Of a stretch of 64,000 nucleotides of DNA, positions 5,842-47,740 are shown piece after piece. Each line of letters starts with the position of its first letter. The first letter of the stretch is position 1. The stretch spans positions 620,001 to 684,000 of the forward strand of contig WHVD01000020.1 in NCBI GenBank assembly GCA_015178975.1, read 5' to 3'. The translations under genes were made by a program, and so were the position numbers. Below the pieces are notes generated by a model, which made no database searches, was not told the origin of the DNA, and worked only from the letters and a program-made list of their open reading frames with translations. This DNA is from Hysterangium stoloniferum (taxonomy: Eukaryota; Basidiomycota; Agaricomycetes; Hysterangiales; Hysterangiaceae).

Positions 5842-6652
5842 TACAACCACAAGGACGTTACGTGCTCTAGCTTTTTTTTTTTTTAATACATTTATATACC
5901 CCATCGCATAACTAAGATACATAGCGGTTGGGAGAAAAAGTACCCTAATGGTAGGTGGGGGGCGGCAGGATATGTATGTAGCTGACAACCGTAAGTCTTA
6001 AGAAAAGTTCGCGGATCTGAACCATGTTATAGGACCATATATATATATAGTTTATCGACATACGATATTTATTGGATATTAGTTGAAAATACTCTAATAC
6101 AGGGAATTAACTACATATGCGCCACGGATATTTAAATGATTATACTGATATTCTATGTTTGTGATATATGGAATTTCAGCAACATTCCTTCTGGAGCTTT
6201 TTTGGGCTAAGGCGAGGTGATCACACTCATTTCCCACCCCGCCACCAGGATCCACCGCCACCACTATTCACCGTTGCCATCACTATCCACTGCCCGCGGC
6301 ACCGTCCATCTATCACCACCACATTGGTCGTCGCCATCCACTGTCGCCTACCGTAACAATAGCGCACACCTGAATGCCCAGACGTCTACGAAGCCACAGC
6401 ATATCAATGTATCGACGAATCTGCGTGCCGTTCGGCCCTGAACCTAACCAGACATTGGCATCTTGCAATGTGAACAGCCAAAAATGGGCTCATGGTAGAG
6501 TGAAAAAGAGGTACTTTGAGGAGTTAACCTGCCACAGATAAGATGGCAGCAAAGGCGATGTCTGAAAACAGATGTCACAATGGTTCAGTGACTATATGCA
6601 TTTCAAACGCTAAAAATATTCACAATACATTCAAGATAACTCAGAGTACAGC
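5842..6652. other. Non-coding; T-run and CCA-rich segment
   Basis: A run of about 14 T near 5871-5884 and a (CAC/CCA)-rich segment at 6235-6350 are the only distinct elements. The T-run could be the poly(A) tail of a retroposon on the minus strand, but no target duplication was found. Confidence 0.35.
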
Positions 6653-6949
6653 TCAGAAGATACATTGGCCATCTGTGGGACGAAGATATATGGTCGGGGA
6701 GCATAGCTCATGGAGGAAATAATGACGACCGGTAATAACAAGCAAAGACGCAAGTGCCCCCAGTACTAACGGGGTCGCTAACACGATAAGTAACTTGCTA
6801 TTCGGTCGGTAAACGAAAGAAACCTTTTTAGATTTGACTTGATAATAAAAGCATCGATACCTACTGCTTCCTGGAACAGACCATGCGAAGCTCAACGTCC
6901 CTTCTCTAGAAAGAGCAGCAGCACTGAGTCTTTTACAATGCAAAGCCAA
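6653..6949 (-). CDS. Small hypothetical protein with one TM segment
   Basis: The frame is 98 codons, with a hydrophobic stretch of about 20 residues near residue 55 (LLIVLATPLVLGALASLLVI). No family is recognised. The start codon is 13 bp outside the edge of the inverted repeat. It could be a chance frame. Confidence 0.25.
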   Translation of the reverse strand: MALHCKRLSAAALSREGTLSFAWSVPGSSRYRCFYYQVKSKKVSFVYRPNSKLLIVLATPLVLGALASLLVITGRHYFLHELCSPTIYLRPTDGQCIF

Positions 6950-7385
6950 TCAGCTGGTATAGTTGAAGCTCGTTCTTCGATACCTTAATTTAAAATATTT
7001 GATGACGGCGATATGACGGAGATTAGATCGACAGGTATATCCCTTGTTAGGGACAGAAAGCGAGACTAGGGCTGCGTATCTGAGGAGTGAATACGTGTTG
7101 GTAGACGATCTACTGTATGTCTTCGACGTTCTTTGTTTTTCTATTTCATCGCTTCGTTTCGAGAAGCTGGCCAACGGACAGCGCTGGGCACCTCTACCGG
7201 GTTAAGAAGGTAAGGTCCCTACTATGCCTCTCCTGCCACTAGGTGGTTCCCGGTTTCGTAGCGTTTGCAGTTGAAGAAACTGTTTTCCAGTTCGCCAGAT
7301 CGTGCTGAAACGCATTGTGTTAAGAGAAGGATGTTGACTGGCTACACACGTCTCCGTTCACTCATAACTTCCATCGGATGCCGGG

Positions 7386-7547
7386 TGTTGGAGTCTGCGA
7401 GCCATAGAAGCTACAAGACTCCGGTATTGTCTCAGATGTTTGATTCTGAGATTGAATTAGGTATTTGGCTATATAAAGGTCATGTAGTCAGCGTTATACA
7501 ATAGTGTGCTCTGTCCTTATACATTAACACTCCCAAAATATTTAACA
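7386..7547. repeat. Solo LTR, 162 bp, inside the left arm
   Basis: Begins TGTTGGAGTC and ends ATATTTAACA, with the 5-bp duplication CCGGG at 7381-7385 and 7548-7552. The right arm has the empty site (one copy, CTGGG). A TATATAAAG box lies inside. The short length suggests a copia-type LTR. The insertion is younger than the inverted duplication. Confidence 0.85.
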
Positions 7548-8104
7548 CCGGGGCGGTACCAAGGTGGCTAATGTTTCATCGACGGCTCCAGTCGGTTCAA
7601 AGGGATCTGGCCCTAACACCTGAGACATCAGCATGTTCAATAAAATGGTTAGTAACGTTGAGAAAGGAAACTTCAAATTACTTCAGCAACTGTGTTGTTT
7701 TACGCTGGGTAACGCTCTCATAAGATATGACATGGAATAATAGCAAATAAATAAACACCAGTGTGAGAAGTCGAATTCAACCAGGTTTATTTCCTGTGGG
7801 AACGTCATAGTTCACCCTTTTCGTCGTTCGCTTACTTGAAAGAGTTTTACGATGTGAGTGAGAGGTTAAAACAAGCGTGTTCACATAATCAACCATTCCG
7901 CTACACCAAAGAATGTCACAACGCAGAGCGAGCGAGGCAACTCGAAACAACAATATTCTCCATCAATAATACTTCAAGACAGAAAGTGACTAGATCGAAA
8001 AGGTCAGCCTACGAATTCAAGTTAGAGAAATAAATCAAAGCCCACCTTCGGAACCGAATATGTACATGGAAATTGCACCATATCTCGGCGTCGGAATTAA
8101 AATT

Positions 8105-8280
8105 CTAGTAGTCCTTCTGGGGCACGCCTTCTTGGCGGGCTTCGTTCAAATCTGGTTGTGTTAAGTCTAAGGGGGTACATCTCTTACGAGGAGAAATAAC
8201 TCACTAGGGGGAGTGGGACTGGAAGACACAAAGGGAAGGAGCAAAACGGCGAGAATGACAGTGAAAACGGTGAATTTCAT
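8105..8280 (-). CDS. Small secreted peptide, copy A (40 aa, one intron)
   Basis: Exon 1 (8205-8280) encodes a signal peptide: MKF, then a hydrophobic core (VILAVLLLPF) and a small-residue cleavage zone SSSPTPP. A 53-nt intron (8152-8204) has GTGAGT at the donor, CTTAAC as a likely branch point and CCAG at the acceptor. Exon 2 (8105-8151) adds NLNEARQEGVPQKDY and stops. The predicted mature peptide is about 20 residues and has no Cys. A TATAAAT box (8358-8364) lies 78 nt upstream of the ATG. The second copy at 10062-10237 differs only at residue 13 (Leu here, Phe there). No family is recognised; a secreted role is inferred from the signal peptide. Confidence 0.6.
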
Positions 8281-8357
8281 GGTGACTGGTGGAGATACGT
8301 ATCACAAATGGATCAACTGGGTTTATGTTGTATCAATGGGCTTACCTTGTACTTAGT

Positions 8358-8364
8358 ATTTATA
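8358..8364 (-). promoter_or_regulatory. TATA box of peptide gene copy A
   Basis: TATAAAT on the minus strand, 78 nt before the ATG. The same box is at the same distance in copy B. Confidence 0.5.
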
Positions 8365-8773
8365 GTCGGTCAGAATCAGCTGAACACATTGTGCCCTCGG
8401 GTTCGCTACCTTTTGGGGGATTCAACACGCGTTCCCATGGCGTCTGAGTTGGGACAAAAAATCGGCAGGTTAGTTTCCATTGACACATTTCAATTGACGC
8501 AATTAATCCGTGGCATGGAAACAGCGGCCAGTAAGGAGCCATCGAATGACGTACGTTGAGGTGAGACGCAGCACTGGGGATCGGATTCCTAGGTTGCAGC
8601 TCGTTACTAGCAACAGTCTTACATTAAAATCACAAAACGCCGCATGGAAAGGCGTGAATTGCATTGATAGTGGCAGGGTCACACACCACAAATGGATTAG
8701 CTCGGTTTTTCCTGTACTTATCACTTATAACCAGAATTTCTCCGTCTGGCCTCAGCCAAGGATCACATTATAG

Positions 8774-9600
8774 ACAGTCATGGGGAACGGCTTGGAGGAC
8801 TACAAGCACCAGGAAAAGCGGGATGCAGTAATGAATAAGTCATTGTCATCCTGATGTTGAAAATAAAGTGTGAGAGAAAGATTTCTTCAGAAGACAACTG
8901 AGTGCAACCGCTGATTCATACCCGCACGCACCCTTCCCTCTCGCCTTTGGGCACGAATCTGATGCCGGACATTTTGTGTGTAGTTCACGAACCCCACATG
9001 AAGGAGTGGTAATGGATATGTACAATGTATCTCACGTAAAGCTGATGTATACCCGCAGGCCGGACACCACGGGACAGTCATCGGGCACGGCTTGGCGGAC
9101 TACAAGCACCAGGACAAGCCAGATGCAGGGATAACAAACTTCTTGCCATCCTGATATGAAAAATAAAATGTGATAGAACGATTTCTTCAGAAACTGAGTG
9201 CAACCGCTGATTCATACCCGCACGCACCTTTTCCTCTCGCCTTTGGTTGCGAATCTGATGCCGAGGTCACGGACACCGGATTGAAGGAATGGTAATGATA
9301 CGTAATGAATCTCACGTGATGCTGATTCATACCTTCAAGCCGACACGGCTTGGCGGACTATATAATTAGATGCAGGAATAGTAAGCTTCTTGCCATCCTG
9401 ATGGCCGAAATTTCCTACCTGATATGAAAAATAAGGTAGAGAAAAGATTTCCTCAGAGGAAAAAAAGACTGAGTGCAACCGTTGATTCATATCCGCACGC
9501 ACCTTCCTCTCTCGCCTTTGGTGGCGAATCTGATGCCGGACCTTTTGTGTGTAAATGATGGACACCACATGAAGGAATGTATTGGATGCGTACAATATAT
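8774..9600. repeat. Three tandem copies (260-300 bp) in the inverted-repeat spacer
   Basis: Units begin near 8774, 9074 and 9336. Each has the sequence of marks CACGGCTTGG(C/A)GGACTA, CATCCTGATR, an ACTGAGTGCAACCG core with the CCGCACGCACC block, and GCGAATCTGATGCCG. The second and third units are shortened by internal deletions. No convincing gene lies in them; open frames on the minus strand merely repeat with the unit. Confidence 0.85.
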
Positions 9601-9977
9601 TTTATGTAAAGTTCAACTCATTCTAACCAATTATAAATGATAAGTACAGGAAAAACCGAGCTAATCCATTTGTGGGTGCCCCTGCCATTATCAATGCAAT
9701 TCATTTTAATGTAAGACTGTTGCTAGTAACGAGCTGCAACCTAGGAATCCGATCCCCAGTGCTGTGTCTCACCTCAACGTGCGTCATTCGATGGCTCCTT
9801 ACTGGCCGCTGTTTCCATGCCACGGATTAATTGCGTCAATTGAAATGTGTCAATGGAAACTAACCTGCCGATTTTTTATCCCAACTCAGACGCCATGGGA
9901 ACGCGTGTTGAATCCCCCAAAAGGTAGCGAACCCGAGGGCACAATGTATCTCATGTGTTCAGCTGATTCTGACCGAC

Positions 9978-9984
9978 TATAAAT
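9978..9984 (+). promoter_or_regulatory. TATA box of peptide gene copy B
   Basis: TATAAAT, 78 nt before the ATG at 10062. Confidence 0.5.
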
Positions 9985-10061
9985 ACTAAGTACAAGGTAA
10001 GCCCATTGATACAACATAAACCCAGTTGATCCATTTGTGATAAGTATCTCCACCAGTCACC

Positions 10062-10237
10062 ATGAAATTCACCGTTTTCACCGTCATTCTCGCCGTTTTC
10101 CTCCTTCCCTTTGTTTCCTCCAGTCCCACTCCCCCTAGTGAGTTATTTCTCCTCGTAAGAGATGTACCCCCTTAGACTTAACACAACCAGATTTGAACGA
10201 AGCCCGCCAAGAAGGCGTGCCCCAGAAGGACTACTAG
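10062..10237 (+). CDS. Small secreted peptide, copy B (40 aa, one intron)
   Basis: Exons 10062-10137 and 10191-10237 flank a 53-nt intron (GTGAGT..CCAG), and the spliced length is 123 nt. Residues 1-21 form a typical signal peptide, followed by SPTPPNLNEARQEGVPQKDY. Without splicing, the frame would run into a stop after about 12 further codons, so both forms are short and secreted. The copy in the other arm is identical but for one residue. Exon 2 and about 100 bp of 3' flank look identical between arms, while the outer flanks have diverged. This fits either selection or recent gene conversion. Function unknown. Confidence 0.6.
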
Positions 10238-11209
10238 AATTTTAATTCCGACGCCGAGATATGGTGCAATTTCCATGTACATATTCGGTTCCGAAGGTGG
10301 GCTTTGATTTATTTCTCTAACTTGAATTCATAGGCTGACCTTCTCGTTCTAGTCACTTTCTGTCTTCAAGTATTTATTGATGGAGTACATTGTTGTTTCG
10401 AGTTGCCTCGCTCATTCTGCGTTGTGACATTCTTTAGTGTAGCGGAATGGTTGATTATGTGAACAAGCTTGTTTCAACCTCTCACTCACATCGTAAAACT
10501 CTTTCAAGTAAGCGACCGATGAAAAGGGTAAATATGACTTTCCCATAGAAAATAAACCTGGTTGAATTCGACTTCTCACATTGGTGTTTATTTATTTGTT
10601 ATTATTCCATTTCATATCTTATGAGAGCGTTATCTGACGTAGACAACACATTTGCTGAAGCAATTTGAAGTTTCCTTTCTCAACGTTACTAAGTATTTGT
10701 ATTGAACATGCTGATGTCTCAGGTGCTAGGGCAAGGTCCCTTTGAGCGGACTGGAGTCGTCGATGAAACATTAGCCACCTTGGTACCGCCCCAGCATCCG
10801 ACGGAAGTTGTGGGAGAGTGAACAGAGACGTGGGCAGGTCAGTCAACATCCTTCTCTTAACACAGTGCGTTTCAGCATGATCTGACGAACTGGAAAACAG
10901 TTTCTTCAACGTAGTGGCAGGAGAGGCATAGTAGGGACCTTACCTTCTTAATCCGGTAGAGGTGCCCGGTGCCGTCCGTTGGCCAGCTTCTCGAAACGAA
11001 GCGATGAAATCCAAGAACAAAGAGAATCAAACGTCGAAGACATCCAGTGGATCGTCTACCAACACGCATTTACTCCTCAAATACACAGCTTTCACCAGTG
11101 TAACTCTCGCTTTCTGTCTCTAACAGGGGATATACCGTTTGATCCAATCTCCGTATATCGCCGTCGTCAAATATTTTAAATTCGGGTACCAAAGAACGAG
11201 CTTCAAGGA

Positions 11210-12732
11210 CATCTTAATATCTGGCGTCCTTGTAGGGTTTGACGCAGGGAAGAAGGTAGGGTCGATCACGTATGAAACACCGAGTTACGGTGGGAGGCGC
11301 TTAAGCAGTTGGCGGTGGACTCGGTGAGTGGGAATTGAACGGCATGAAGGAAATTCAAACGGACACAGCTGCTACAGCAACAAAGGATATGGGCGGAAGA
11401 GAAGGGGCATTATTTTAAACTTATAATGTTCGCTTTAGAAACGGACTCTATGCGGCGAGTACTCATAGTCTTGTATACAATATGACCGCGCAATAGCCTA
11501 AGGCACCCAAGCGCGCATGTCGAACCTCATTACTGTGCAGGTACTCTGAATGCAGAATGAGAGTGGCAGGAATAGCAATAGGAAATGGCATAGCTTGTAC
11601 CTACACTCAAGCGCCCTATATACCGGCGAACCGGCCGATGAGACGGTCGGCGAGTATAATGGTCAGGTCTATCCACGATCCAGAGACACCTAGTCATGGC
11701 AACAGAATCACATCGTGCAGAAATGATGCGTGCATGCACACCGTTATCCTCTTCATGGTGCGATGTGCTCTCTGGAGTCGAGATCAGAAAGAACTTCCAG
11801 ATTTACAAGGGCAGACTGCCGCCACCTCAAACTGACACAGGGGAGTTGAATGACCCGCTGCGCAATCCAACGCAACCTGCTTCAAGTTCAACGGTAAATA
11901 ACTCATTGCAAAATCTGATCATAAAAACACCGGATGTGAGCAGTAAACAGTGGAAGTAGGTGAAGAACAAGTGGAGACGCGTCACGGGTGCCCATGCTAT
12001 CACGCGCAGTACTATTGTGCACCATGTTCAGGTATGGAGTAGAGAGTAAGTGGTACCAGAGATAAGTACGAGATAGAAGAATCCTAGTTGAGAGTAGATG
12101 CAGAACCGATCGTGAATCTCGCCCAGTTGACCCATCCCTGACGCGCAAAATCCCTTCAACGTGGCACAGTGGATACTGTGATCGTCAACAGCTCGGCTAG
12201 CACATATAATAAGGACATTTGGTGACTGAATAGGGAAGTTGGCGAGAAGACCGTGGAGCGAGGGGAAGAAGTGTGGCTAGCTGATAGCTCTAAAACAGGG
12301 TGGTTACATTAAATGATAGATCCAGGGCGATCCCCTGACCTCAACATGACAGTCCACACTAATAATGACCCCAACAAGTGCCAACGCCCGTGAGTCTGAT
12401 ACATGCAAGGGGGGAAAGACCATTGCCTGCAAATAATGCTCCGTTGGTGATAGGTAGGAAATGTTTTGGGAGTCCGTATTGCATTGGCATGCGTTCTTGC
12501 TTCTAAGAGAGTAGCTCAAGGGAAGACAGACAATATCAAAACAGAAGCTTGGGTTAAAGAGACACCAGGCTAACGAATACCGTGAGAATTCGGCTTTTAG
12601 ATTCGGAAAATAAATAGTTTTCTATTCGGTCCCAGAAAATCTAATTCCATTTCGTGCTCAGCCCTTTCTGTCACGGCTTTGGCACTTAACAACCTGACCT
12701 TGACAGTTTATTCAGTTTGGACATGAAGTGTA
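11210..12732. other. Non-coding or unrecognised
   Basis: Several short open frames (up to 92 codons) lie on both strands, but none has a recognisable motif or supporting splice structure. I see no confirmed gene. Confidence 0.35.
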
Positions 12733-13019: not shown

Positions 13020-14130
13020 TGTTAAGTAGTAGACAAGATTTCGGAAGGATTTTGAGTCTGTTTGCGAAGCTCAGTGAGTGAGTGAGTAAACTCCACTATA
13101 TATTATAGTACCTGTTTGCGAAGCTACAAGATGTTTGATAAGTAACAGAATAATAATGAATGATTGTGCATATACCTCAGTGAGTGAGTGAGTAAACTCC
13201 ACTGAGGTATATGGCAAAATATTGCGACTTTTTATCTAATTTCTAATTATTTTAGGAGAGATATTAGGAGAGTAAATAGGGGAAATTTAGATACTCGAAG
13301 TTTCTAGTCGATTGCATCATTAAGGAGAAATTCGTGATTAGGAGTTATTTCCCCCCTTGACGGCACCTCAATATATGTGCATATATGCGCATATATTCGT
13401 CATTGTAGGTTTGATTCCGATTTCGGTTTAGGAGGATATCTGAAAACTATTAAGTATACCAAATTCTAATATACTCTAAAGGTCATTTAAACATCTGGGA
13501 TGTGATTCAAACATAATTTGGTTTTTAAAACTTTTTGAAAGTTTTAAACTCTCTCATACATTACAAACTAATGAATCTTTCTGGACACAAGTAGACAATA
13601 AAAAAAATTAGTAGTTTGAAACACTAATACTTTTAAAAAATAGATACCTTTAAATAGTCCATTCCATGCATATGTATATCATTGGCACCTCTAAATACAT
13701 ATGTATTACTTTGGAATGGATCTGTCAATCTAAACAGATTTCTACTTGATTCAACATATCCAGAATATATAGGGGGTTTTACTTAATAAAGACAGCTGTG
13801 GTATGAAAAATTTCCAATAATATTTTACATATTTTACATGGAAATAACTTCATTACAACTTTTAAAAAACAAAGTACTAATAAAAGTATTAGTAGGCATC
13901 TGTAAAAGGAAGGAAATTATATACAATGGAATTTGTTAAATAACTATGGGTTGTATAAGATGTAATATGGAGAACTATTTCTGATGGTTGTTTTTTGATG
14001 ATATAATTGTTTCAGAATAGATATCACTATTTAAAGATGGAGTTTTGTAAAAATAAGACTTTTATTAGTAAATATTTGAGATTATAGTAATTATAAACAC
14101 CCTCCTTATGCGAAGACTTGATTACTAACA
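13020..14130 (-). repeat. Copia 3' LTR, interrupted by MITE
   Basis: Starts TGTTAAGTAG and ends ATTACTAACA on the + strand. With the MITE and one TTA removed it is 433 bp and matches 19887-20318 closely. It contains a perfect 9-bp-stem hairpin ACCTCAGTG/CACTGAGGT at 13174-13208, and a related half-copy near 13070-13098. Confidence 0.95.
13431..14105. mobile_element. MITE copy A, 675 bp, TTA duplication
   Basis: Begins GGAGGATATC and ends AAACACCCTCC; TTA flanks both sides (13428-13430, 14106-14108) and the intact LTR at 20318 shows the empty site. It is A/T-rich, with no coding frame. It is nearly identical, in the opposite orientation, to 17273-17947. Confidence 0.9.
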
Positions 14131-17100
14131 CTTCCCCTTAAGTCGAGTGTTGATAAGACCGAGTTTTGATGTAAAATAGATGAGTTTTGAGTGAGGTAAA
14201 GCTTTGGTGAATATATCTGCTGTCATATCTTCGGTAGGACAATATGCGAGTGTAACTGTGCTGTTTTCCACAATTTCGTATATGAATTTGTATTGTATGT
14301 CAATGTGCTTTGTTCGTCCTTGAAATCTGTTATTCTTCGATATGATAATAGCGGCTTGATTGTCGCAATGGAGTATGATTGATTTTGTGAATGGATGAAA
14401 GATTTCATTCATGAATTTGCGAATCCAGCATGCCTCTTTAATGGCATATGTGGCTGCAATGAATTCGGCCTTGGTGCTAGATAAAGTTACGAGTTTTTGT
14501 TTGTTTGAACTCCAAGAGAATGCTCCACCATTTAATAGAAAACAATAGCCTGACATTGAATGTCGATCCGGTTGTTGTCCCCAATCTGCATCTGTATATC
14601 CCATTATTCCACTCTCGTTCCTTCCTAATGTTAATTTGAAATCTCGTGTTCCCTTCAAATATTTCAGTACTCTCTTTGTTGCTTCCCAATGTACTTGTCC
14701 TGGATTCTCCATAAATTGAGATAAGATAGACACTGCAAAAGCAATATCTGGTCTTGTACCCATTGCGGCCCACATTAATGAACCAATGGCTTCGTGTTAA
14801 GGAATGTTCTTCATATTTTCGCATTCTTTTGGTGTAGTAGGACATTGTTCTTTTGATAATAATGGTTTGGGGTCCATAGGCAGTGTGATTGGAACTGCAT
14901 CTTGTAAATTGAAATGTTTGATGATCAAGTTGATATATGCAGTTTGTCCGAATGAGATTGTATGCGCTTTTATATCATATTTGACCTCTATATTTAGTAA
15001 CCAATGTAATTCACCCATATCCTTCATTTTGAAATGTGATTTGAATTGCTCTTTTGTTTGAATTATCCCTTCGTTCGTATTTGCAGTGATGGTGAGATCG
15101 TCCACGGCTACTGCAATAATAATAATACTGTGCTCCACTCATTTGTAGAATACGGCTGGATCAGATAGTGAGCAAGTAAATCCCATTTGATTCATCACCT
15201 TGCTGAGTAGCTTGTACCATTCTCTACCTGATTGCTTTAAACCATATAGAGCCTTTTTCAATTTGAGTACTTTCGATGGTGGACCTTGAGGAAATCCCGG
15301 TGGTTGGTGCATATACACCGGTCCTGTAAGTTTTGCATTCAAGTATGCATTGTTAACGTCCATTTGCTCTATAGGCCAGCTGTTCTGGGCTGCTATGCCT
15401 GTTATAAGCCTCAGTGAAGCCACACGAACAATTGGAGAAAACGTCTCTTCATAGTCCGTCCTGAATACTTGTGTAAAGCCTTGAGCTACAAGTCGTGCCT
15501 TGTATGTGGTAATGTTTCCATTCACATCACGTTTTATTCTTAATGTCCATTTAGAACTGACTATATTGATTCCTTCGGGCTTGTCGACGAGTTCCCAGGT
15601 GCCTAAATCGTGTAAGGCCTTCAACTCCTTTAAAAATGCCAGCTTCCACAATGACCAATTGTCTCCTCTCATAGCCTCTTCCACTGTAGCTGGTACACCT
15701 TCTTGAATGTTTGCAATCATCCCTATCGTTTCCAATCTCTCACTGTCCATTCTGTCTGTAAACTCCATCCACTCCAATGGGCTATATGTGTCTGTATACG
15801 AAATGTTTTTATCGACCATGATTGGCGGCTCACTTGGACTGTTTTCCCATAAAATTGAGTCTTCATCAAAACCATTTTCATCTTCTAATATAACGCATGT
15901 AGCTTTTCCAAATTCTTCTGGTACTTGTAGTCTTGGAGAAAATTCGATCTGACTAGAACCTGCAGTGAGACAGCACATATAATCAGATGGAAATCTGGTT
16001 CTTGAACTTCATCTCAATTGCTCTTGAGGTAAGGATTCCATAGTTTCTGGTAGCTCTGGAATGCTAACTTGAGGCGATTCGGGTAATGGTACATCTGTGG
16101 GCATTTGAGGAAGTATTTTGTATGTTTTGGGCTCTAGATCCTTTCCTGATACGAGTATAGGAGCCCCAGCTTGCTTGGGGAATGCTACATTTCATTCTAT
16201 GGTTACGGTGCGTTTTTTCTGGCCAATATATGTGGCGTCCTTCACTGTTAAAACTGTACCTGACCCAGTGGCCCTCTTTTGCCTTGGGTCCTAGTTTACC
16301 TCCCTCTGGTTCCATCCTCACATATATAATCTCTCCCCATTCTGCTAAGTCACTTAGATTCGGTTTCTTGTTATGAACTAGCTCGTATGGTGTTTTTCCA
16401 TCGAGAGCTGATGTTGCTGTTCTATTCTTTAGAAATACTGCATGTTGTATGCACTCGCCCCATAGAAACTTGGGCAGATTGGCAGCGATGAGCATTGACC
16501 GAGTGTGTTCAACTAATGTTCGATTTAGTCTTTCTGCGACACCACTCTGTTGGGGAGTATCATGAACGGTTAACTGTTGGAGGGTTCCTCATGAGGATAA
16601 ATAGTCTTTAAACTCATTAGATGTGTATTCGCCTCCATTGTCCGATTGTAGTTTCTTAATCACAATGTTTCTTTGTTGATTTAGGAATGCCTCGTATGCT
16701 TTGTACTTTTGGAATGCTTCTCCTTTCGTTTTCATCAGGTAGGTTCTTGTTTCCCTTGTGAAATCATCAGTAAATGATATATACCATCTACAACCTCTGA
16801 TGGTTTGAACTTTGGATGGCCCCCACACATTGGTGTGTATCTTCTGGCCTTGAGATTTGGCTCGTTCTGATTTCCAAACTTTTGGGATTGGTTCCTGAGT
16901 AATCTTTCCTTTGATACAGGCTTCGCAAAACTCGATAGGCCTTGAGTGGTCTAGTGTTATCCCTTCAATTGCTCCATTTTCGACCATTCGCTTTGCAGCA
17001 GCTGGTGCTATGTGTCCCATACATGTATGCAGCTCGTTTATTGTCATTGTAGTGCAGGCGTCATCTTGTATATTATTGGTTTCGTGGATAGTATAGCTTC

Positions 17101-17272
17101 TTTGATAAAGACCGTTGATTTGATCGATTTGCCTGCATATACCTCCGGATTTCGAAGAGTGCATTTTCCATCGCCGAATGTGCATGAGAACCCCTTTTTA
17201 TCGCAGCATGTGATGGACACTAAAGTAAATGCTAATTCGGGTGAGTACAACACATTTTGTAATGTGATGTTA

Positions 17273-17947
17273 GGAGGGTGTTTATAATTACTATAATCTC
17301 AAATATTTACTAATAAAAGTCTTATTTTTACAAAACTCCATCTTTAAATAGTGATATCTATTCTGAAACAATTATATCATCAAAAAACAACCATCAGAAA
17401 TAGTTCTCCATATTACATCTTATACAACCCATAGTTATTTAACAAATTCCATTGTATATAATTTCCTTCCTTTTACAGATGCCTACTAATACTTTTATTA
17501 GTACTTTGTTTTTTAAAAGTTGTAATGAAGTTATTTCCATGTAAAATATGTAAAATATTATTGGAAATTTTTCATACCACAGCTGTCTTTATTAAGTAAA
17601 ACCCCCTATATATTCTGGGTATGTTGAATCAAGTAGAAATTTGTTTAGATTGACAGATCTATTCTGAAGTAATACATATGTATTTAGAGGTGCCAATGAT
17701 ATACATATGCATGGAATGGACTATTTAAAGGTATCTATTTTTTGAAAGTATTAGTGTTTCAAACTACTAATTTTTTTTATTGTCTACTTGTGTCTGGAAA
17801 GATTCTTGAGTTTGTAATGTATGAGAGAGTTTAAAACTTTCAAAAAGTTTTAAAAACCAAATTATGTTTGAATCACATATCAGATGTTTAAATGACCTTT
17901 AGAGTATATTAGAATTTGGTATACTTAATAGTTTTCAGATATCCTCC
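17273..17947. mobile_element. MITE copy B, 675 bp, inverted relative to copy A
   Basis: Begins GGAGGGTGTTT and ends CAGATATCCTCC, with TTA on both sides (17270-17272, 17948-17950). It splits the copia protease-integrase region. Same length as copy A. Confidence 0.9.
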
Positions 17948-18828
17948 TTAGTGGGCTTGCTGCCGTTTTGCACTTGTATGCACATATTGCCAATTCCTGT
18001 GGCTAAGAACTCTGTCTTATCTGCTGCGTGAATTTTCCGAGGTGGGTCTATTGTTTCGAAGCTTGAGAATAGGCTTAGATATGGGGACATATGAGAATTG
18101 GCCCCAGAGTCCCATACTTCAACGATGTTTGTGCCGTTATTGTTAGTTTCATTATTTGTTAAAATTCCTGTGTTAAATGAGCTAGCGAATGCATATGACT
18201 CTTCATTTGCAATGTTTCCATTCCTGCTGTTGCCTGTATTGTATCCCCTTTGGTTTGTGTTATTGCACCTTGAATTTCCGCGCATATATCTTGGTCCTTG
18301 CCCTTCCTTACCACCACCTTTAGCCCAACAATCGGCTATGACGTGCCCGATCCATCTGCAATTCGGATTGAAGCACGTCAGGTTTCGATTTTGAGTTGTG
18401 GAGGTGTTTCTCGAGTTCCAGGAGTTATTGCTAGGACCTGTACTTCATCGTTGGCCCTTAGTATTAGCTAGGAGGGCTTGATTATTGTTATTAGTTGAGT
18501 TTGGGGCTTTCTTTGATTTTCTATGCTCATATTCGGCTTTGATCATTGTTATTAGACTTGTTGGAGTTAAAACAGTTCCAGTGGCTGTTGCAGAAGTCGT
18601 TACTGCATTCATCATGATGTCGTAAGAGTCCGGGAGTGAACTCAACATGATATTGAAGAAATCGGTATCTTCTACCTTCATTCCCATGCCTGCTAATCGC
18701 TGATGCATTTCGAGCAGGGTGTCAAGGTGGGAATGCACATCTTCCCCTTCTTTGCACTTTAGAGCACGCATTCTGTGCTGCAAATCAACTTGAGTCATTT
18801 TCAGCTTCGACTCGAATTCCTGGCAAAC

Positions 18829-29364: not shown

Positions 29365-29714
29365 TACAGTGACTTACAAAATGTATCCAATATTTTGTAG
29401 TTTCAGCTTATATATGCTATATCCCAGTAGATAAAATAGTAGAAATCACCGAAATATTTGTGAACATGACCTATCATGTATATATGTATATGGTAGAACT
29501 ATATTATGTAATATCCATATATGGAAACACTATGAATATTTTAATGGAGAGGGTTCATTGGATACGTTTTGTAACTGACAGGTTCTAGCATGAAAACCAT
29601 GTGCCTATGTTGATTGTTTGCAGTTGTTTATGTTTTTCAACATGACATGTGATCATTCTATACTACAGTATAAGTAGAAGGGCTTTCTCAGCTAAGATTC
29701 CCTCAATTCTAACT

Positions 29715-31299
29715 ATGCATCCCCTTTCCACTGCTGCCCAGTATGAGATCCTTTCTCTACTTAATGCTGGCCATTCTGCCAGACATATTTTAGTTTCTAC
29801 TGGCTATAGCTATGCTACTATCTCTAGACTTTGTTCTAAACACTGTTCCCACCTTTATAAGTCCTCTGGTGGTCACCCTTCCAAACTCTCCACAGCCAAC
29901 ATCCATTTTGCACAACACCTTATCAGCTCTGGAAAGGCTGATACAGCTGTAGATGCAACAAAGGCACTTTGCACTATCACCAACCAGTCACTCAATCCTC
30001 AAACAGTGCATCGTGGACTCAAGGCAGCTGGGATGAAGCCTGTGGTAAAGAAGAAAAGGCCTCTTCTTGCTAAGAGGCATAGGAAGGAGAGGATGGATTT
30101 TGCTTTGGCACATCAGGATTGGACTGTGGAAGATTGGAAGAAGGTGGTGTGGTCTGATGAGACCAAAATTAATAGGCTGGGGTCAGATGGCAGGAAGTGG
30201 GTGTGGAAAAAGGCAGGGGAGGGCTTGAGTGACAGGCTGGTTGAGGGAACCCTGAAGTGTAGTGATGGATCTTTAATGGTTTGGGGGTGCATGCTGTGGG
30301 AGGGGGTTGGGTATGCATGCAAGATTGATGGAATGATGGATGGGGATCTCTACATCCAGGTTCTGGAGGATGACCTGCAAGCCAGTCTTAAGGACTATGG
30401 TAAATCTGCCAATGGTATCATCTTCCAGCAAGACAATGACCCCAAGCATACTTGCAAGCAGGCTGTTACGACCCATTCCCGGATGTTTCAATATCCGACT
30501 TCCGATCTCCCACTTTCGATATCCGATATCCAACTACGGAACATCATAGTTACCGTATCATCCGCGTTCTTCGTTTGTTCCGCATTTGGTAATTTGTCCG
30601 TTGACAAGTATTCACTCGTTTGTTGTTGTATTCCCGTCTCGGAATATTGTCTTCCTAATATGTCTTATTGTATTTCCGTTTTAAGAACACTTCCGTTTCC
30701 GTCTTATTATGGTCTCAGTTTGTAGTACAATAATGAGTAGACTTATATTAGTTTCCGCGAATTTGTACTTTACTTTAGATCTGATATCGACTTAGTTTCT
30801 TATTCCTCCTCCCGTCTTTCTGTACGCTCGATATTCGGAACTCTTCGGAACTCTGAATATCCATATCTTCCATCGTTAGTTCACTTCCAAAATTAAGGAC
30901 ATTGAGCGTTTGCGTAGAGGCGCAGCACATAAGCTGAAGCCGACGTCCTGACCCTATCCACGAGTTTCCGACTTCCCGGTGACTTCCCGATAGTTCCGGA
31001 ATAAGTTCCCGACACGGCACTTAACACAGGCCCAGAATTGGTTGCAAGAAAATGGTTTCAGGGTTCTCTCATGGCCAGCACAGTCTCCTGACTTGAATCC
31101 CATTGAACACCTATGGAATCACCTGAAGAGGAGGTTGGCAGGGTATGAGAATGTACCCCAGGGGATGGAAGAGTTGTGGGAGAGGGTGGTGGATGAATGG
31201 TACAATATTGATGCAAAGGTGTGTCAGGATTTGATTGAAAGTATGCCTAGGAGGGCTTCAGATGTATTAAAGGCAAAGGGTGGCTACGCTAAGTACTAA
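29715..31299 (+). pseudogene. Tc1/mariner transposase, DD34E, interrupted
   Basis: The 5' part (29715-30463) has an N-terminal helix-turn-helix region, then WSDETK (first Asp) and QDNDPKHT (second Asp). A 563-bp LTR plus its 5-bp duplication follows. The 3' part (31032-31299) has PDLNPIEHLW with the Glu. Outside the insertion the frame is open: the two parts total 1017 nt (338 codons plus stop), the usual length for the family. The only visible lesion is the LTR. Cut-and-paste transposition is the family role. Confidence 0.93.
30464..31026 (+). repeat. Young gypsy-type solo LTR, 563 bp, in the transposase
   Basis: TGTTACGACC..GCACTTAACA, duplication CAGGC at 30459-30463 and 31027-31031. Rich in CpG, unlike the host element. 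Carries the shared core GCAGCACATAAGCTGAAGCC at about 30922. Confidence 0.95.
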
Positions 31300-35571: not shown

Positions 35572-38500
35572 TCATGCATGTATTGGCGTAACGGGGCGAG
35601 AACACTGTTTATTAGAGCACGGCTGGAACTCGTTCGTTCCATCGGCGTCTGTGTCCATTAATTGGTGGGAGTACGAGTATGCGAATTCTTCCGCACTGGC
35701 GGGAGTATACGGAACAGAAGGCGAGTCCTCTCCGCAGCTCGAAGACGACGGTGGCCCAAGGCGCGCATTGCGGAGGTGAAATGCCGAGTAGGGAGACGTG
35801 GGAGACGTGGCCGATCCATCGCTCCTGAAGGAGACATTGAGAGATAGGGGCGCGTCAAGGTCAAGATCCAGTCCCAGACGGGCGCCTTGGCTTCCAAAGA
35901 GTCGGGCTGAGACTTTGCGGCTTGGGATGGTGGAAGAGTTGTGTGGAGGGTTTGCGGCGGGGGGACCCGCCCCTGGCGAGCTAGGTTCGTCCTTGATGAA
36001 CCTCGGCGAATATACAACGCTGTTGCTATCCTCTTCGGGTGACGAGCTAGAGTAGTAATTTCCAGCTTTCAGTTCGACGTGCTCTTCAGAAGACGCCGGG
36101 GGTGATGGTGACAGAGCAGGCGTTCCCGCTTCAGACGAGGAATGTGAAGGGTCGCTATTAAACTGGTCGCTGTTAAACTGATCGCCATTAAACTCGGGAT
36201 TCTGGTAATAGTGAGTCTGGTTTAAAGATAAAAATTAGAATAGTGCGTCGAAAGCATAAAATGAGAAATCTCACATCAGAGCCTGGATATTGAATTGGCG
36301 GTGGCTGAACTGTAGGAGCGCGCTGTTGTTGCTGAACATATCCCTCACCAGTCCACGGATTTCCCCAGGTTTGGCTAGCCCGGGATGAAATGGAACCAAA
36401 AAAGTTGAATGCATTTGCAATGCTCGAAGAAGCCATAGCTCGGTCCAAACTGGATCCACGTCTGCGCATAAGTCTCGATCCCGTATCAAAGTGTGACGGC
36501 CGCGGTGGGAACGGATGGTGCTGCGGCGCGGAAAGGGGCCGATGTTCGTCCGATGCCTCATGATGTCCCGCAGCAGAATCAACTTGGGGAGGAGCGAAGG
36601 GCGACGGAAAGGCAAAAGGCGAAGCGGATAGGAATGGGTTTCTGAACATCGTAGGCGAGACATCTTCCAAAGGAGAATCCACCGGCGGGTGAGGGGGGTG
36701 AATTGAAGGTGCAATCCAGGTGTCGGGATTGTCGAAGAGGGAGGTGAACATTCCCGGAGGCGGGAGCGGGGGGCAACTTGACGATCGACGAATTGAGAGT
36801 CGCGACGCATTAACCGACGAGCCCATGAAGGACGCGACAGGCGAATCAGGGGGGAAGGAATTATCGTACGAAAATACACTGGGGGGCGTGGAAAAGCGGT
36901 TATAATTATTCGGGGTCGGTGTTGCGGATGCACCGGGCTGGAAGGGGTGGGAAAACTGGATGGCGAGCGGCGCAGGCGTCGCGTCAGACTCGCTTACTTG
37001 TCCCATCTCAGCACGGGACGGGGGAGGGACAGAACCTACCCTAGGCAGGGGTGCATGTAGCTGTAAATTCTGCACATGTGGGTGGGAGATAGGTTGCGGA
37101 GCGAAAGGCGAGTTGAAGACGGGTGAATTGTACTGGTCAGACTGTCCCTCGATTGCATGCTTGATCCTATAGTGGCTGCCGTACCCATAATTATCTCTTG
37201 TCAACGAGCGACCAACCCTCTCACGTTCGTCAAGAATATGGGAGGGGCCATCTAAAGCACCAGGTGTGCGAGATCCGCCAGCTATAGTTCCGAGGCCATT
37301 CTTCCGAACTTGCGCCTGAGTCATTTGGACAGGATTATACCTGTAACCAGGCCATTTCTGCTCATGCCTATTCTTCTCGATTTCAGCAGCTTTCGTCCAA
37401 GGCTCTCGTTCTTGGTTACTAAAAATGAGAGAAGGCAATATTAGTAAGTAATTAGGAAAAATGCCGACAATGGGGTGAAGACCCCCAAAAAAAAAATACT
37501 GATCAGAAGCGAAGAAGTACCAAGAAATAAATACCCTTAATAGGCAATCACTGGTATACCAAATGCGGTATAAGGAGGTGACAAGGAAGGAAATTTGTTG
37601 CCACACGTGATACTGTGTGACATAAAGGCGCCGGTGATGAATAGCGACCGATGGGCGATCTGATCCGGCGCAGGAACACGGGCGGCAACAAAAATTACCC
37701 ACGACTCAAAGTATAATAGAAATGCCAAACACGCGAAATCGATCCCAACACACTCTCGTGAGATTTGAGCGCGGGTTCCCGAAGCGGAACCAAAAAGGGA
37801 GTAATGAAAGACGACATCTCACCTCATAGCCTTCCATACACGTCCGGCAATTCGACTGATATTCCTGTGGTCCTTCTCGATGCTCGCGGGAACGGACTGT
37901 TGACTGACAAATAGACAGCGGAAGAGGATGAAAGCATTGCGGGGCCGCGGAATGTGTCCAGCGGGCTGCTTGCGTGCATGCGATTTCTTCTTCGGTCCAG
38001 ACGATGCGATGTCATCGAGTGTCGCGAGGATGGTGCCAGGGGACATCGGTGGTAGTGGTCGAAACTCAGGGAGAGGGGGACTGGCACCTGAGGGCCTGAA
38101 AGCCTCAGGTGAAGTCGAGCCTGGTGCCACTGGCTGTGGCGCATATGTAAAGCTGTGGGTCGGAGAACAGACGGATCGCGAGGTACTGGTCGACTGTGGC
38201 GATTGCATGTGGGGAAGTGGGGAACTCATCACCGCAGGAGAGTCGGGTGGTGATGGTTCAGGAGGAGGGCTCGAAGACGCACAATGAAGTGAAGAAGATG
38301 AGGGCATTTCGTATTCGAGTTGATTTCCAACATGCGGGGCGTAGAGCTGATCTGGGATCTCTGTATGTCCTATCATTTTGCTGTCGCCTGCGACGAAGGA
38401 ATTATGGCGATTAGGTTGTGTAAAGAGACGACGAGAAGAGGATGAACGAGGAGCAGATAAACGAAGGACAAAGATACAAGGGAGAGATATTAAATGCAAT

Positions 38501-38585
38501 GCTCACCAGTGGTTATATAAAAATCCATCACGTTGAATTCCTGGTCTTGGTGGTGAAAGGGAGACAGTGAACCACCCGCTGACAT
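35572..38585 (-). CDS. HMG-box transcription factor, 810 aa, four exons
   Basis: Exons 38507-38585, 37823-38387, 37418... to 36275, and 35572-36216 join in phase to 811 codons including the stop. The HMG box starts after a basic KKKSHARKQ stretch: PRPRNAFILFR, then EKDHRNISRIAGRVWKAM at the end of exon 2, and EREPWTKAAEIEKNRHEQKWPGYRY-type residues at the start of exon 3. Both halves match a MATA-HMG/SOX-like box. Flanking regions are Pro/Ser-rich, as in fungal regulators. The protein should bind DNA in the nucleus. The intron inside the box is 404 nt, against 40-120 nt elsewhere. Related basidiomycete proteins act in sexual development, but a specific orthologue cannot be named. Confidence 0.85.
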
Positions 38586-43974: not shown

Positions 43975-46075
43975 TTACTTTGCGCTGACGCGCTTCAGCA
44001 TCGTCGACAAACTAGGGATATGCAAAACATTCTCCCCGGTTTCACTGTCTTCCTTAAAATAGAGCATGTCTATAGGGGCTCCGTTTGCGTAGATCCCATC
44101 GAAAGTCACCCAAGATAGAAGGCATCCTGTATGGGTGTTTTGAGGACGACCATATGCATAAGCGATGCTGGAAAAAAAATAGTGGGTTAAGGTGGTAATT
44201 GCCTTGGTATTACTGTACTGAACGACACATACCGAAACTCTCCTGTTCGATAAGTGCTCCAAAGAGCCACAGGTTTCCCCTTTCCAGGATTTCGGGATTG
44301 TATCAACGCGAGAAAGTCCACGCCTTGAAGGATCAGTCGTTCAAGCCAAAGGGACCCACGACGGACTTTGATTACTGCCTGGTTATCCTTCCCAGTCCCA
44401 GAAGACCAATGGCCACCAAAAGACTTCTGAGCTGATGCTTCCTGAACTCTGTCAAAGATGGGTTGGAAGCGTGTGATAGCCTCACGGGCAATCTCTTCCG
44501 CCTGGGAGTAACGACCAGCAATGAGAACGATGACACCGTAGGATGACACTGGATTAACACTGAAGACGGAGTGGTGACTGTCAAGGTTCCCCCCTGACAG
44601 AGCGGGCGTAAGGCGGGGCAGAGAGGTACTATTCGGCTGAATTCACCTTTTTCGTAGAATCTCACCGGTCGACCCGTCGAATCAGTATATTTCACAATCT
44701 CCCATGGTGCTCCGACTTCATTCAAGTCATCCTCCCATCCATGCAAGGGCCGAAGCCACTCTCTAACGGTATATGGACTCAAAACAGCATTAGCGCGGTG
44801 AGGATCAAGAATGGTTTGCATGAAGGCTGAAAGGTCCACCAGTGAAGAGTATTGCCCTCCCGCTGGATTGTATACCTCTCCCAAATCTAGATCCTAAAAG
44901 CCAACAGTGAAATGTGCACTCTGAAATCAGGTATTGATAGCATACCGTATCTGAGTAATAGCGCGAGGCGACAGCCACCCTATGAGCCATGTCTGAAGTC
45001 ACTTTGAACGAGCTAGAGTTCATTCCTATGGGTCGAAAAATGTCACGTTGAGCGAGGTCCGCCCATGTAGAAATGTTAGAGGGTTGTTCATGCGCATTGT
45101 TCGCTGCGACATTGGCCAAGCCTAATAATCCCATACCTAAAACTGCCATTAGCTGGTTGGTCAATGAGGAACAGACTATACAAGAAGGCACCGGCATTGG
45201 AATATACAGGATAAGAGTAGGGAGGGACAACGAGTGGGGTTCTCGCAATTAACTCGAATAACTGCTCTTTAGTTGGTGGAACAATTTTGGTTGGCTCTCC
45301 GCCTCGTTCTTTAGGTGGCCATTCGATCTCGCCTAAATTACAGTCTCGAGGGATACCGGCCATGTGCGATGCGAGCTGACGTATGGTGATTGGTTCAATA
45401 GAGCCATGATCGCCAAGTCCGACATCAGTGTTATCTGCCCATGAATTAGGGTTATACGTGAAGTTGGGAAAGAACTTGGTTATCGAATCATCCCTAGTAT
45501 TGGTCCTAAGAAGTCGTAAATTTGTAACACCATAAAAGGACTCACCAATTAAGTGCACCACGATCGCGTTGGATAAGTGTTCCAGCAACTGTGAACATCT
45601 TTGAGATGCTTGCAATGCGATATATCGAATTCTGGTCTACCGTGCCATATCTGAGTGGGTCCGTCTCATTGGCTTTTAGTATACCATATCCTTTCTGGAA
45701 TATGGGCCCAGAAGGGGTGATTATCGCAATAGAAAGACTGTCGATATCCTCCTTTGCAGTCCTAGTACGAAGGAATCTATCTAAAGAGCGAGATGCTGAC
45801 TCGAAAATGGCACGAGTAGGCTCTGGTGCATCTGTGAGTCGTGGGAGAAAGGGACGACATGCATGGGATATCTCTTGCTGTTCCATAGAGTGCAACACAG
45901 GGAGCCATGCCGATAATCCAGTTTGGGCCCATAAGATCATATGGTATAGTAGAAATACTTGGCTTATCAAAATAAACAAGCTTTTCAGCAATGATTGAGG
46001 AGAGGGGAGAGATTCATGCTTATTTGAAAAGCGGGAATATTTCATGGTAGTCTTGAACTTTTTTTGCAACGTCAA
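43975..46075 (-). CDS. Beta-lactamase/serine hydrolase family protein, six exons, about 600 aa
   Basis: Exons 45546-46075, 45192-45505, 44946-45142, 44647-44893, 44233-44593 and 43975-44167 join in phase to 614 codons. A hydrophobic segment near residues 32-50 suggests a signal anchor. The catalytic SxxK motif is SISK (ASISKMF, about residue 159); the Tyr-x-Asn motif is YSN before intron 2. The C-terminal third resembles the extra domain found in fungal proteins of this family. Such enzymes hydrolyse esters or amides by acyl-enzyme; the substrate here is unknown. An internal ATG at codon 11 (46045) is an alternative start. Introns are 40-63 nt. No lesion seen. Confidence 0.85.
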
Positions 46076-47740
46076 GTTATGACGGACGGGTTGCCAACAA
46101 GAAACCAGTGTAATATATAATACAGTCTCAGGCGGGCCGAATTCGGTCCACCAACCTCATTTCAACGGGACTAGAACACACCATCTGACCTAAAAGAAGA
46201 TATCTGATCGCAGTCAAGTCTAATATTGCGCAAGACTATTATTGTGTGTACAGTACTATCATAGAATTATCTCTGGCGGTTTGAGTCCTTTGGCCGTGTT
46301 ATACAGTGTAGAAGAACTGCGAAACTGACTAGCTCGTTTTGGTGAGTGTGTAAGAACGGCTCTGCTGGGACCGGCAGAAGGGGAATTCACATGCTATTGA
46401 CAATTGTGTCATATCGCCCATGAGATGCTTAGCAACCTAACATGAGATTGGTGGAGAAGTCAGATATTCTTCTCCTTGAGGCGCTCAATGTCAGGTGCGA
46501 CTAAAGGACAACGAAAGATGCCCCTCGAAGCGGTGCACTATAGTCCAGCGATCAGCATTCTTACATATCGTACTTCCTTCTCGCCTTTTAATAGAGGAAA
46601 CCGTGTGAGAAGCCTAATTAGATGATTTTAACCATTTTTCAACACTTGGTTCTCTCTGAGATCAGTTTGCTTTTTGATAGTTTTTACACTGAACATTTTT
46701 TTCGCCATGCTACGTAGAATAGTTAAGCACATTAAAGTGTATATTGATCATGAGTTTTCATGTCTAAGTGCTACCGAAGTGTATTTGAAGTAGAATTATT
46801 GCAATTGTCAAAAATAATGACACTTTCGAAAAAAGTTCGAATGTCTAGACGGATAAGGTCAACAAAAACTCACACTTGGTCATGGCACTCCTCAAATTAT
46901 ATTTGAAAATTGCAATAATATTGCGTTCAACACTCGCGATTTATTTATAACAACGTACAGTAACTAGACCTAATAAGCCTAATGAAACAAGGGGAGACAA
47001 ATTTTGTAAAATACTGATGGGCATATGGGAAAACAGACTGACTCTGTAGTACGTACCAGAGGCCACAGTTGCGCACAGCAACATAACATAGCCTCTTCGG
47101 CAACCCGCTCAGGTGAAGAAATAATATTGGATAGACCAAGGATGTACTTGTCAAGTAGTACCAAAATTAGTCGGGTTGAGCAGCTAAATTCGCGGCGTGT
47201 TTGGTTGTCCACAGCTAGATGGATGCAAGAGAAGTGGCAAAAATGGTTCAAGTGCCAAACTACTTAACAGCGTATTCAACTACATCGATTCTGTTGGATA
47301 TTACTTGACTTGTCACAAAAGCTAAAATGTCACTGTCAGCGTGAAGCCTTTATGAAAACAACTACGGCACCAGACAGTATGCAACCTATAAACTATAAAT
47401 ACAGCGTGCAGTCTATAAATACACCCCCTAACTGCGATCAAGTCCTCGGTATCGTGTGAGTAATGTGACCTTTCTCACAAATACTTTTTGATAGGATGTT
47501 GATCCCAGTTGTTCTTTGACTAGATCGAAAGTCTATCTATATCGGCCCCTTGATGAAGGTTACTACGAGAAACGAGTCATTAGCAGCTGTTGGGGTCATT
47601 CGATAACCCTAAGGGTATCGTTCATCTGTACAAACTAAATATATCTTTGTCAAGTAATTGAACATCTATAAATGGCGTGTGATGTCAGTGTGGCTGTATA
47701 TTGACCACCGGTTATCCTCTCTCTTAGAATTTACCCTCCC
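46076..47740. other. Divergent intergenic region
   Basis: It separates the minus-strand hydrolase from the plus-strand kinesin and must hold both promoters. TATAAATAC motifs occur near 47393 and 47414. No gene recognised; frames at 46945-47267 are A/T-rich and lack motifs. Confidence 0.4.

Follow-up and report, generated by a model that had tools for sequence, protein, structure and literature searches.

A pair of small genes in inverted orientation was characterised within a 64,000-nt stretch of the genome of Hysterangium stoloniferum (contig WHVD01000020.1, positions 620,001 to 684,000; hereafter the window). Taking all sequences together, these are probably real genes for a short, Cys-free secreted signalling peptide, belonging to a family arranged in about four divergent inverted pairs, with gene conversion between the arms of a pair and with peptide variants that differ between the pairs. 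Gene L and gene R (Table 1) each consist of exons of 76 and 47 nt, which after splicing encode a product of 40 amino acids. The gene R product is MKFTVFTVILAVFLLPFVSSSPTPPNLNEARQEGVPQKDY, that of gene L being the same except for L13 (F13L), a residue of the putative signal sequence. Alignment of the arms together with splicing and translation bore out what an earlier note on this DNA had stated, namely two inverted arms, each with a two-exon gene and an identical 53-nt intron, and products differing at one residue only (residue 13, F/L). The TATA box reported there, TATAAATA, is present as well and starts 84 nt before the ATG in both genes, but the distance of 78 nt given for it was slightly off, as 76 nt separate its last base from the ATG. 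Two ungapped blocks between the arms, of 422 and 245 nt, are 98% and 99% identical, respectively; among nine blocks further out, eight are at 88-94% and one is at 96%.

A gene family in inverted pairs

DNA and protein searches covered the assembly to which the window belongs (111 Mb, 554 contigs) and yielded eight family members, arms included, within about 101 kb (530.6-631.5 kb) of contig C113, on which the window lies, and one diverged member on contig C201. The C113 loci are 530k, 558k (B_L), 592k (C_L) and 628k (A_L) on the minus strand and 546k (D_R), 560k (B_R), 593k (C_R) and 630k (A_R) on the plus strand, with the strands of the eight copies alternating without exception. The pair of the window, pair A, is one of about four inverted pairs on this contig, which had gone unnoticed in the earlier note. 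In A, B and C the divergent arrangement is evident, and D has an intact right arm, beside which only a relic of the left arm is found. Locus 530k, a 372-bp fragment, matches D_R best in promoter, exon 1 and intron and A best in exon 2 (1/44 differences); it is either a left arm of D that has been displaced or what is left of a fifth pair. A profile of promoter and exon 1 matches the seven C113 copies that possess both exons and in addition six short relics (17-32 bits), five of which precede a gene oriented as they are; the sixth, beside D, adjoins no gene. Diverged repeats, about 290 bp long and related to one another, are found in the spacers of A, B and C, and a single piece of about 100 bp in that of D. 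The family stretch on C113 as a whole is repeat-rich and full of nested inverted duplications. A transposable element carrying the gene was considered unlikely, because the unit was found only in this one C113 stretch and as one diverged copy on C201.

Probable gene conversion between the arms

In pair A the core around the gene (9752-10380) differs between the arms at 12/619 positions and the outer arm at 59/653 (1.9% vs 9%), and in pair C the respective values are 3/540 for the core (9981-10530 in A_R coordinates; 1/388, then 2/152 just downstream) and 108/649 for the outer arm (0.6% vs 17%). Between pairs, the cores differ at 22/390 (A_R vs C_R) and 31/394 (A_R vs B_L) positions, 5-8% overall, and for the pair C core Fisher's test gave P = 1.5e-26 against the outer arm and P = 4e-6 against the A_R/C_R core difference. 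Core identity within a pair exceeds both between-pair and outer-arm identity in A and C and does so weakly in B, the comparison having covered A, B and C, with D lacking an intact left arm beside it. A GENECONV-like run test within pairs gave P = 0.0001 for A and P = 0.00005, the floor of the test, for C. These values are as expected if gene conversion from arm to arm affects the gene and its surroundings over about 0.5-0.6 kb, most clearly so in pair C; conversion had been put forward in the earlier note and finds support in the near-identical A and C cores, the diverged outer arms and the differences between pairs.

The identity of the arms is not exon-specific, as it spans promoter, intron and 3' DNA and then falls off outward; within pair A, the exons differ at 4/123 and the adjacent non-coding DNA at 8/494 positions (P = 0.27). 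As a consequence, the earlier claim that the gene core is better conserved than its flanks stands with regard to the outer flank but not if the core is equated with the exons, whose identity is no higher than that of the equally alike near non-coding DNA. Purifying selection on the coding sequence, which the same note had offered as another cause of the identity of the arms, is not supported, because intron and promoter match as well as the exons.

Alternatively, the arms might be alike only through recent local duplication of each pair, without any conversion, which we regard as improbable. Nested inverted duplications do abound in this stretch, and the regions of B and C match almost perfectly over kilobases, a larger inverted duplication (C113:555-568 kb vs 583-598 kb) covering both, with 98-99% identity in parts, 0-1% divergence over several kb and about 5-20% divergence across the peptide-gene arms. 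However, a uniform divergence along the arms was looked for and not seen, and because the cores and outer arms of one pair diverge so differently, by the percentages given above for A and C, a single duplication date is insufficient.

Variation and apparent selection in the exons

All seven two-exon C113 copies and the C201 copy have an open frame without exon indel, and the introns of D_R and 530k carry deletions. Between A_R and C201, exon 1 differs at 13/76 sites (non-coding 73/261, P 0.07), and in five comparisons of exon 1 with C201 synonymous exceeds non-synonymous change per site (P 0.0042, 0.025, 0.036, 0.064 and 0.064); from these sequences, selection seems to act on the leader. In exon 2, A_R and C201 differ at 30/44 sites (non-coding 73/261, P = 5e-7) with the net length unchanged. 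The C201 exon 2 is unrecognisable against the C113 copies, and it is possible that the difference arose by exon replacement rather than by point change.

In the eight C113 copies, exon 2 begins with 21 nt that are the same throughout, and of the 15 nt that follow, 9 vary. With 8 variable sites within 12 nt, this exon contains the tightest such cluster of the region compared; a permutation test gave P = 0.0036 for one copy each of A-D (501 nt) and P = 0.012 when 530k was included (334 nt). The patch reads VPQ, PGL or QGH, plus varying neighbours, whereby pairs A and C both carry VPQ and differ at K/R38 and T/N23. Variation is also found before the arginine at position 31 (Arg31), at residues 22, 23 and 24 (SPTPP, SPTSP, SPNPP, STTPP), and at four leader positions; residue 26 is N. 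An origin of the patch by micro-inversion was rejected as too weak, QGH matching the reverse complement of VPQ at 7/9 positions and the other two comparisons reaching 5/9.

The rapid change of exon 2 behind a conserved leader, together with the repeat-rich setting and the copy amplification, is also in line with an effector or antimicrobial peptide directed against a host, competitor or grazer, the patch then resulting from an arms race and the pairs from dosage amplification in a fast-evolving, repeat-rich island. Such a role is possible, if on the whole doubtful, as the peptide is very short, has no Cys and by eye is about neutral to slightly acidic, unlike common antimicrobial peptides. We infer that a variable extracellular signal is the most likely function, with an outward-aimed effector coming second.

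The precursor and its possible processing

The N-terminus of the A_R product is strongly hydrophobic, with 3/495 ATG-started open reading frames of the window being as high, a number in which the unspliced frames of the two genes are likely to be counted. The 20 residues at the C-terminal end of the 40-residue product are polar. Exon 2 encodes most of the predicted mature peptide. The products end in KDY, RDY or PPW, no Cys occurs in the seven products listed, and neither a dibasic site nor a visible internal repeat is present in the 40-residue products. Arg31 is found in every product listed, with R38 in addition in pair C. It is followed by QEGVPQKDY-like sequences on C113 and by EP-QATSPPW on C201, and the exon-2 patch is located entirely after it. 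In the excerpts of PMC9769878, KEX2-derived precursors of C. cinerea expressed in yeast are described as being cleaved after a single Arg with removal of XP/XA dipeptides, pyro-Gln at the N-terminus and Trp at the C-terminus of peptides being noted as well. A short Cys-free secreted peptide, which the earlier note had called unusual for a fungus, is less so, because comparable KEX2-derived peptides of Agaricomycetes are reported in the same excerpts (PMC9769878).

Assignment to known peptide classes

Pfam gave no match up to E 1 for the A_R, B or C201 products, NCBIfam none up to E 1 for those of A_R and C201, and Rfam no structured RNA at the gathering threshold in window 6000-12500. Among solved structures, PhnH (6jjs, E 0.0034) was the one match; it aligned with the first 28 residues, which we attribute to chance similarity with the hydrophobic leader. 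Among the papers listed in literature searches, judged by title and abstract start, neither the family nor anything relevant on hypervariable mushroom peptides was seen, which does not establish novelty of the sequence, with no fungal sequence collection searched.

The a-type lipopeptide mating pheromone of basidiomycetes is defined by a C-terminal CAAX box with Cys. As such a box is absent from the products, all of which end as given above, they are not pheromones of this type. A link to the mating type was likewise rejected, all 15 STE3 matches being on contig C553 and none on C113. About four STE3 receptor genes are clustered at C553:189.6-199.9 kb, a region which we take to be probably the B mating-type locus and to point to a mushroom-forming basidiomycete. 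Tentatively, a non-mating signalling locus with unprenylated peptides and several specificities may be envisaged, in which each inverted pair would hold one variant, conversion would keep the partners matched and new pairs, arising by inverted duplication, could change the few specificity residues, with a receptor possibly reading the variants; we hold this more specific proposal to be unlikely.

Classification as a KEX2-repeat protein (KEP) was rejected as well, because by definition such a precursor would need repeats and dibasic sites, and no repeated cores between KR, RR or KK sites were found. A precursor of a modified cyclic peptide (ribosomally synthesised and post-translationally modified peptide, RiPP, of the dikaritin type) would be expected to have a UstYa gene beside it. 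UstYa-family genes are present in the genome (17 matches), but 0/17 of these are on C113 or C201 and the products have neither core repeats nor dibasic sites, rendering this origin very improbable.

Weighing of the evidence

Several findings count against the reading as converting pairs of signalling-peptide genes. The run test revealed a weak conversion signal in pair B (P 0.048) and low values between pairs too (B_R/C_L 0.00005, C_L/B_L 0.0014, A_L/C_L 0.007, C_L/D_R 0.008, A_R/C_R 0.014 and B_L/D_R 0.04), with P above 0.05 in three comparisons (B_L/C_R, A_R/B_L and A_R/D_R), and the test, a permutation test, ignores the relatedness of the copies. Because several of these between-pair values are low, exchange is not confined to partners and probably occurs between different pairs too. 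The excess of change in exon 2 over non-coding DNA within C113 is modest, as in tests covering six of the ten possible C113 pairs it was significant in two (530k/D_R and B_L/C_R, P ~0.013-0.014) and not significant in 530k/B_L (0.07), B_L/D_R (0.16), 530k/A_R (0.33) and 530k/C_L (1.0). Of 15 residues Arg31 is the one that is shared, possibly by chance. STE3, STE2 and DUF6533 were the only receptor types sought, and none matched C113 or C201: STE2 had no match in the genome, where its control matched nowhere either, and the best 150 scored of 402 DUF6533 candidates included none on either contig. Finally, B_R has lost exon 1, and seven C113 copies are hence left with both exons.

This loss may be taken as a sign of a decaying, non-functional repeat family, the open frames of which would be left from a recently active ancestor, and the same holds for the fragment at 530k, the six truncated promoter and exon-1 relics and the exon 2 that is not conserved with C201. 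Such a decay is nevertheless quite unlikely, as eight two-exon copies (seven on C113 and that on C201) are without stop or frameshift, indels occur in introns and flanks and none in exons, and in exon 1 synonymous exceeds non-synonymous change towards C201.

Features of the window and neighbouring repeats

Table 1. Features of inverted pair A in the window (positions in the 64,000-nt stretch)
Feature	Position	Strand	Remark
Left arm of pair A	6963..8730	-	inverted repeat with 9631-11206; contains the 162-bp solo-LTR-like insertion
Right arm of pair A	9631..11206	+	homology to other pairs extends to ~11490
Gene L, TATA box TATAAATA	8364-8357	-	
Gene L, exon 1 (putative signal sequence + SPTPP)	8280-8205	-	translated, spliced
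Gene L, intron	8204-8152	-	53 nt, GT-AG, identical to gene R intron
Gene L, exon 2 including stop	8151-8105	-	
Gene R, TATA box TATAAATA	9978-9985	+	
Gene R, exon 1 (putative signal sequence + SPTPP)	10062-10137	+	translated, spliced
Gene R, intron	10138-10190	+	53 nt, GT-AG
Gene R, exon 2 including stop	10191-10237	+	variable patch = codons 33-38
Relic upstream of gene L (second promoter, start of exon 1)	8643..8733	-	nhmmer 31.5 bits, E 1.4e-8
Relic upstream of gene R (second promoter, start of exon 1)	9628..9703	+	nhmmer 19.9 bits, E 5e-5
Spacer between the arms	8773..9611	.	direct repeats (about three, ~290 bp, diverged); related pieces between arms of other pairs
162-bp solo-LTR-like insertion	7386-7547	.	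bounded by TG..CA, flanked on either side by a CCGGG direct repeat; in left arm, absent from right arm

The 162-bp repeat resembling a solo long terminal repeat (LTR) was found at no fewer than 39 other near-full-length places in the genome and at least 7 partial ones. In six contigs two copies occur on one strand at a distance of 712-716 bp, a spacing that points to an LTR element of very small size together with solo LTRs, presumably similar to terminal-repeat retrotransposons in miniature (TRIM-like). Its assignment as a miniature inverted-repeat transposable element (MITE) was dropped, the TG..CA ends and 5-bp direct repeats fitting a solo LTR better.

Interleaved with the peptide pairs, a module of about 2 kb is amplified mainly on C113 (397-553 kb) and C1 (2.68-2.72 Mb), with 58 matches among those listed, where the best 40 of 124 candidates were scored (an example being L011:2989-5024). 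The copy examined has stops and seems decayed, and its pieces are by eye like a multi-pass membrane protein. A likeness to DUF6533-type membrane proteins had suggested a ligand-receptor arrangement with the peptides, an idea that was reduced to a lead, as four of the module's five open pieces had no Pfam match and one matched GPR15L weakly (E 0.2). DUF6533 itself is a very large family across the whole genome, with at least 150 matches over the cut-off (150 scored of 402 candidates). Elsewhere in the window, Copia-like pieces (by eye; 14125-18444), a Tc1-like transposase (Pfam HTH_Tnp_Tc3_2; 29646-30725), a possible HMG-box piece (weak, E 0.24; 37819-38502), a beta-lactamase-family gene (Pfam; 45088-46156) and the end of a kinesin-like gene (weak, E 0.11; 49175-49993) were observed.

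Comparison with known systems

The MF products of Cryptococcus are mating pheromones, namely CAAX lipopeptides. The excerpts of PMC526376 and PMC12510652 describe the MF genes at MAT as small and often inverted or divergent, and the MFalpha genes as located inside inverted repeats about 500 bp long, with gene conversion within the locus presumed to keep the copies alike. To the extent of these excerpts, the family reported here is alike in having small peptide genes in inverted repeats with apparent conversion between the arms. Unlike the MF products, the peptides here have a putative signal sequence, no Cys and no CAAX box, and their genes are sited on C113 with STE3 on C553. The palindromes of the primate Y chromosome, which like their genes are much larger, are comparable too in their conversion between arms. 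Concerted evolution between inverted arms is the shared trait, as cited in the excerpts of PMC526376 and PMC12510652.

With the KEX2 repeat peptides of Agaricomycetes, as they appear in excerpts of PMC9769878 and PMC6339444, the family would share a short linear peptide, XP dipeptides, a Q-start and, putatively, a signal sequence, and the C201 tail EP-QATSPPW resembles QMRPPSW and QYKAPSW of that group. Here, in contrast, one peptide is encoded per precursor, without repeated cores or dibasic site, and copies come about via gene duplication. Qsp1 of Cryptococcus neoformans is described in the excerpt of PMC7537855 as a short peptide that is secreted as pro-peptide, matured by proteolysis, imported by an oligopeptide transporter and acting intracellularly. 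The likeness to Qsp1, by description and not by sequence, is that of a short, proteolytically matured pro-peptide in a basidiomycete, whereas inverted pairs and variable sets are a feature of the present family that this excerpt does not describe for Qsp1 (PMC7537855).

Proposed model and significance

The suggested course of events assumes that each intact arm, as read from its sequence, has a TATA box of its own, followed by an exon for the putative signal sequence, a short intron and an exon for the peptide. Conversion, very probably so in A and C, would then copy the core of about 0.5-0.6 kb, whereby the same mature peptide would be made from both arms despite their old, diverged surroundings. 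Judged by the counts, the leader appears to stay near-constant between pairs while the exon-2 patch changes. Next, the precursor would enter the secretory pathway and lose about 20 residues, with a maturation broadly similar to that of KEX2/STE13 peptides in basidiomycetes; a cut after the single Arg31 may yield the Q-starting QEGVPQKDY, or (EP)QATSPPW from the C201 copy, the alternative to this cut being the 20-residue product SPTPPNLNEARQEG... Finally, the peptide would act extracellularly as a variable signal, with the pairing serving dosage and repair and with new pairs giving rise to new variants.

Alpha-pheromone-like peptides without known function are reported for basidiomycetes in the excerpts of PMC6339444 and PMC9769878. 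A peptide encoded in converting inverted pairs and diversified between the pairs would offer a compact natural experiment on which residues change and what responds to them. The arrangement resembles the known maintenance of pheromone genes, by analogy and for a different class of apparently secreted peptide, and the layout of inverted repeats and conversion known from the Cryptococcus pheromone genes may thus be seen here in another peptide class, away from the receptor locus.

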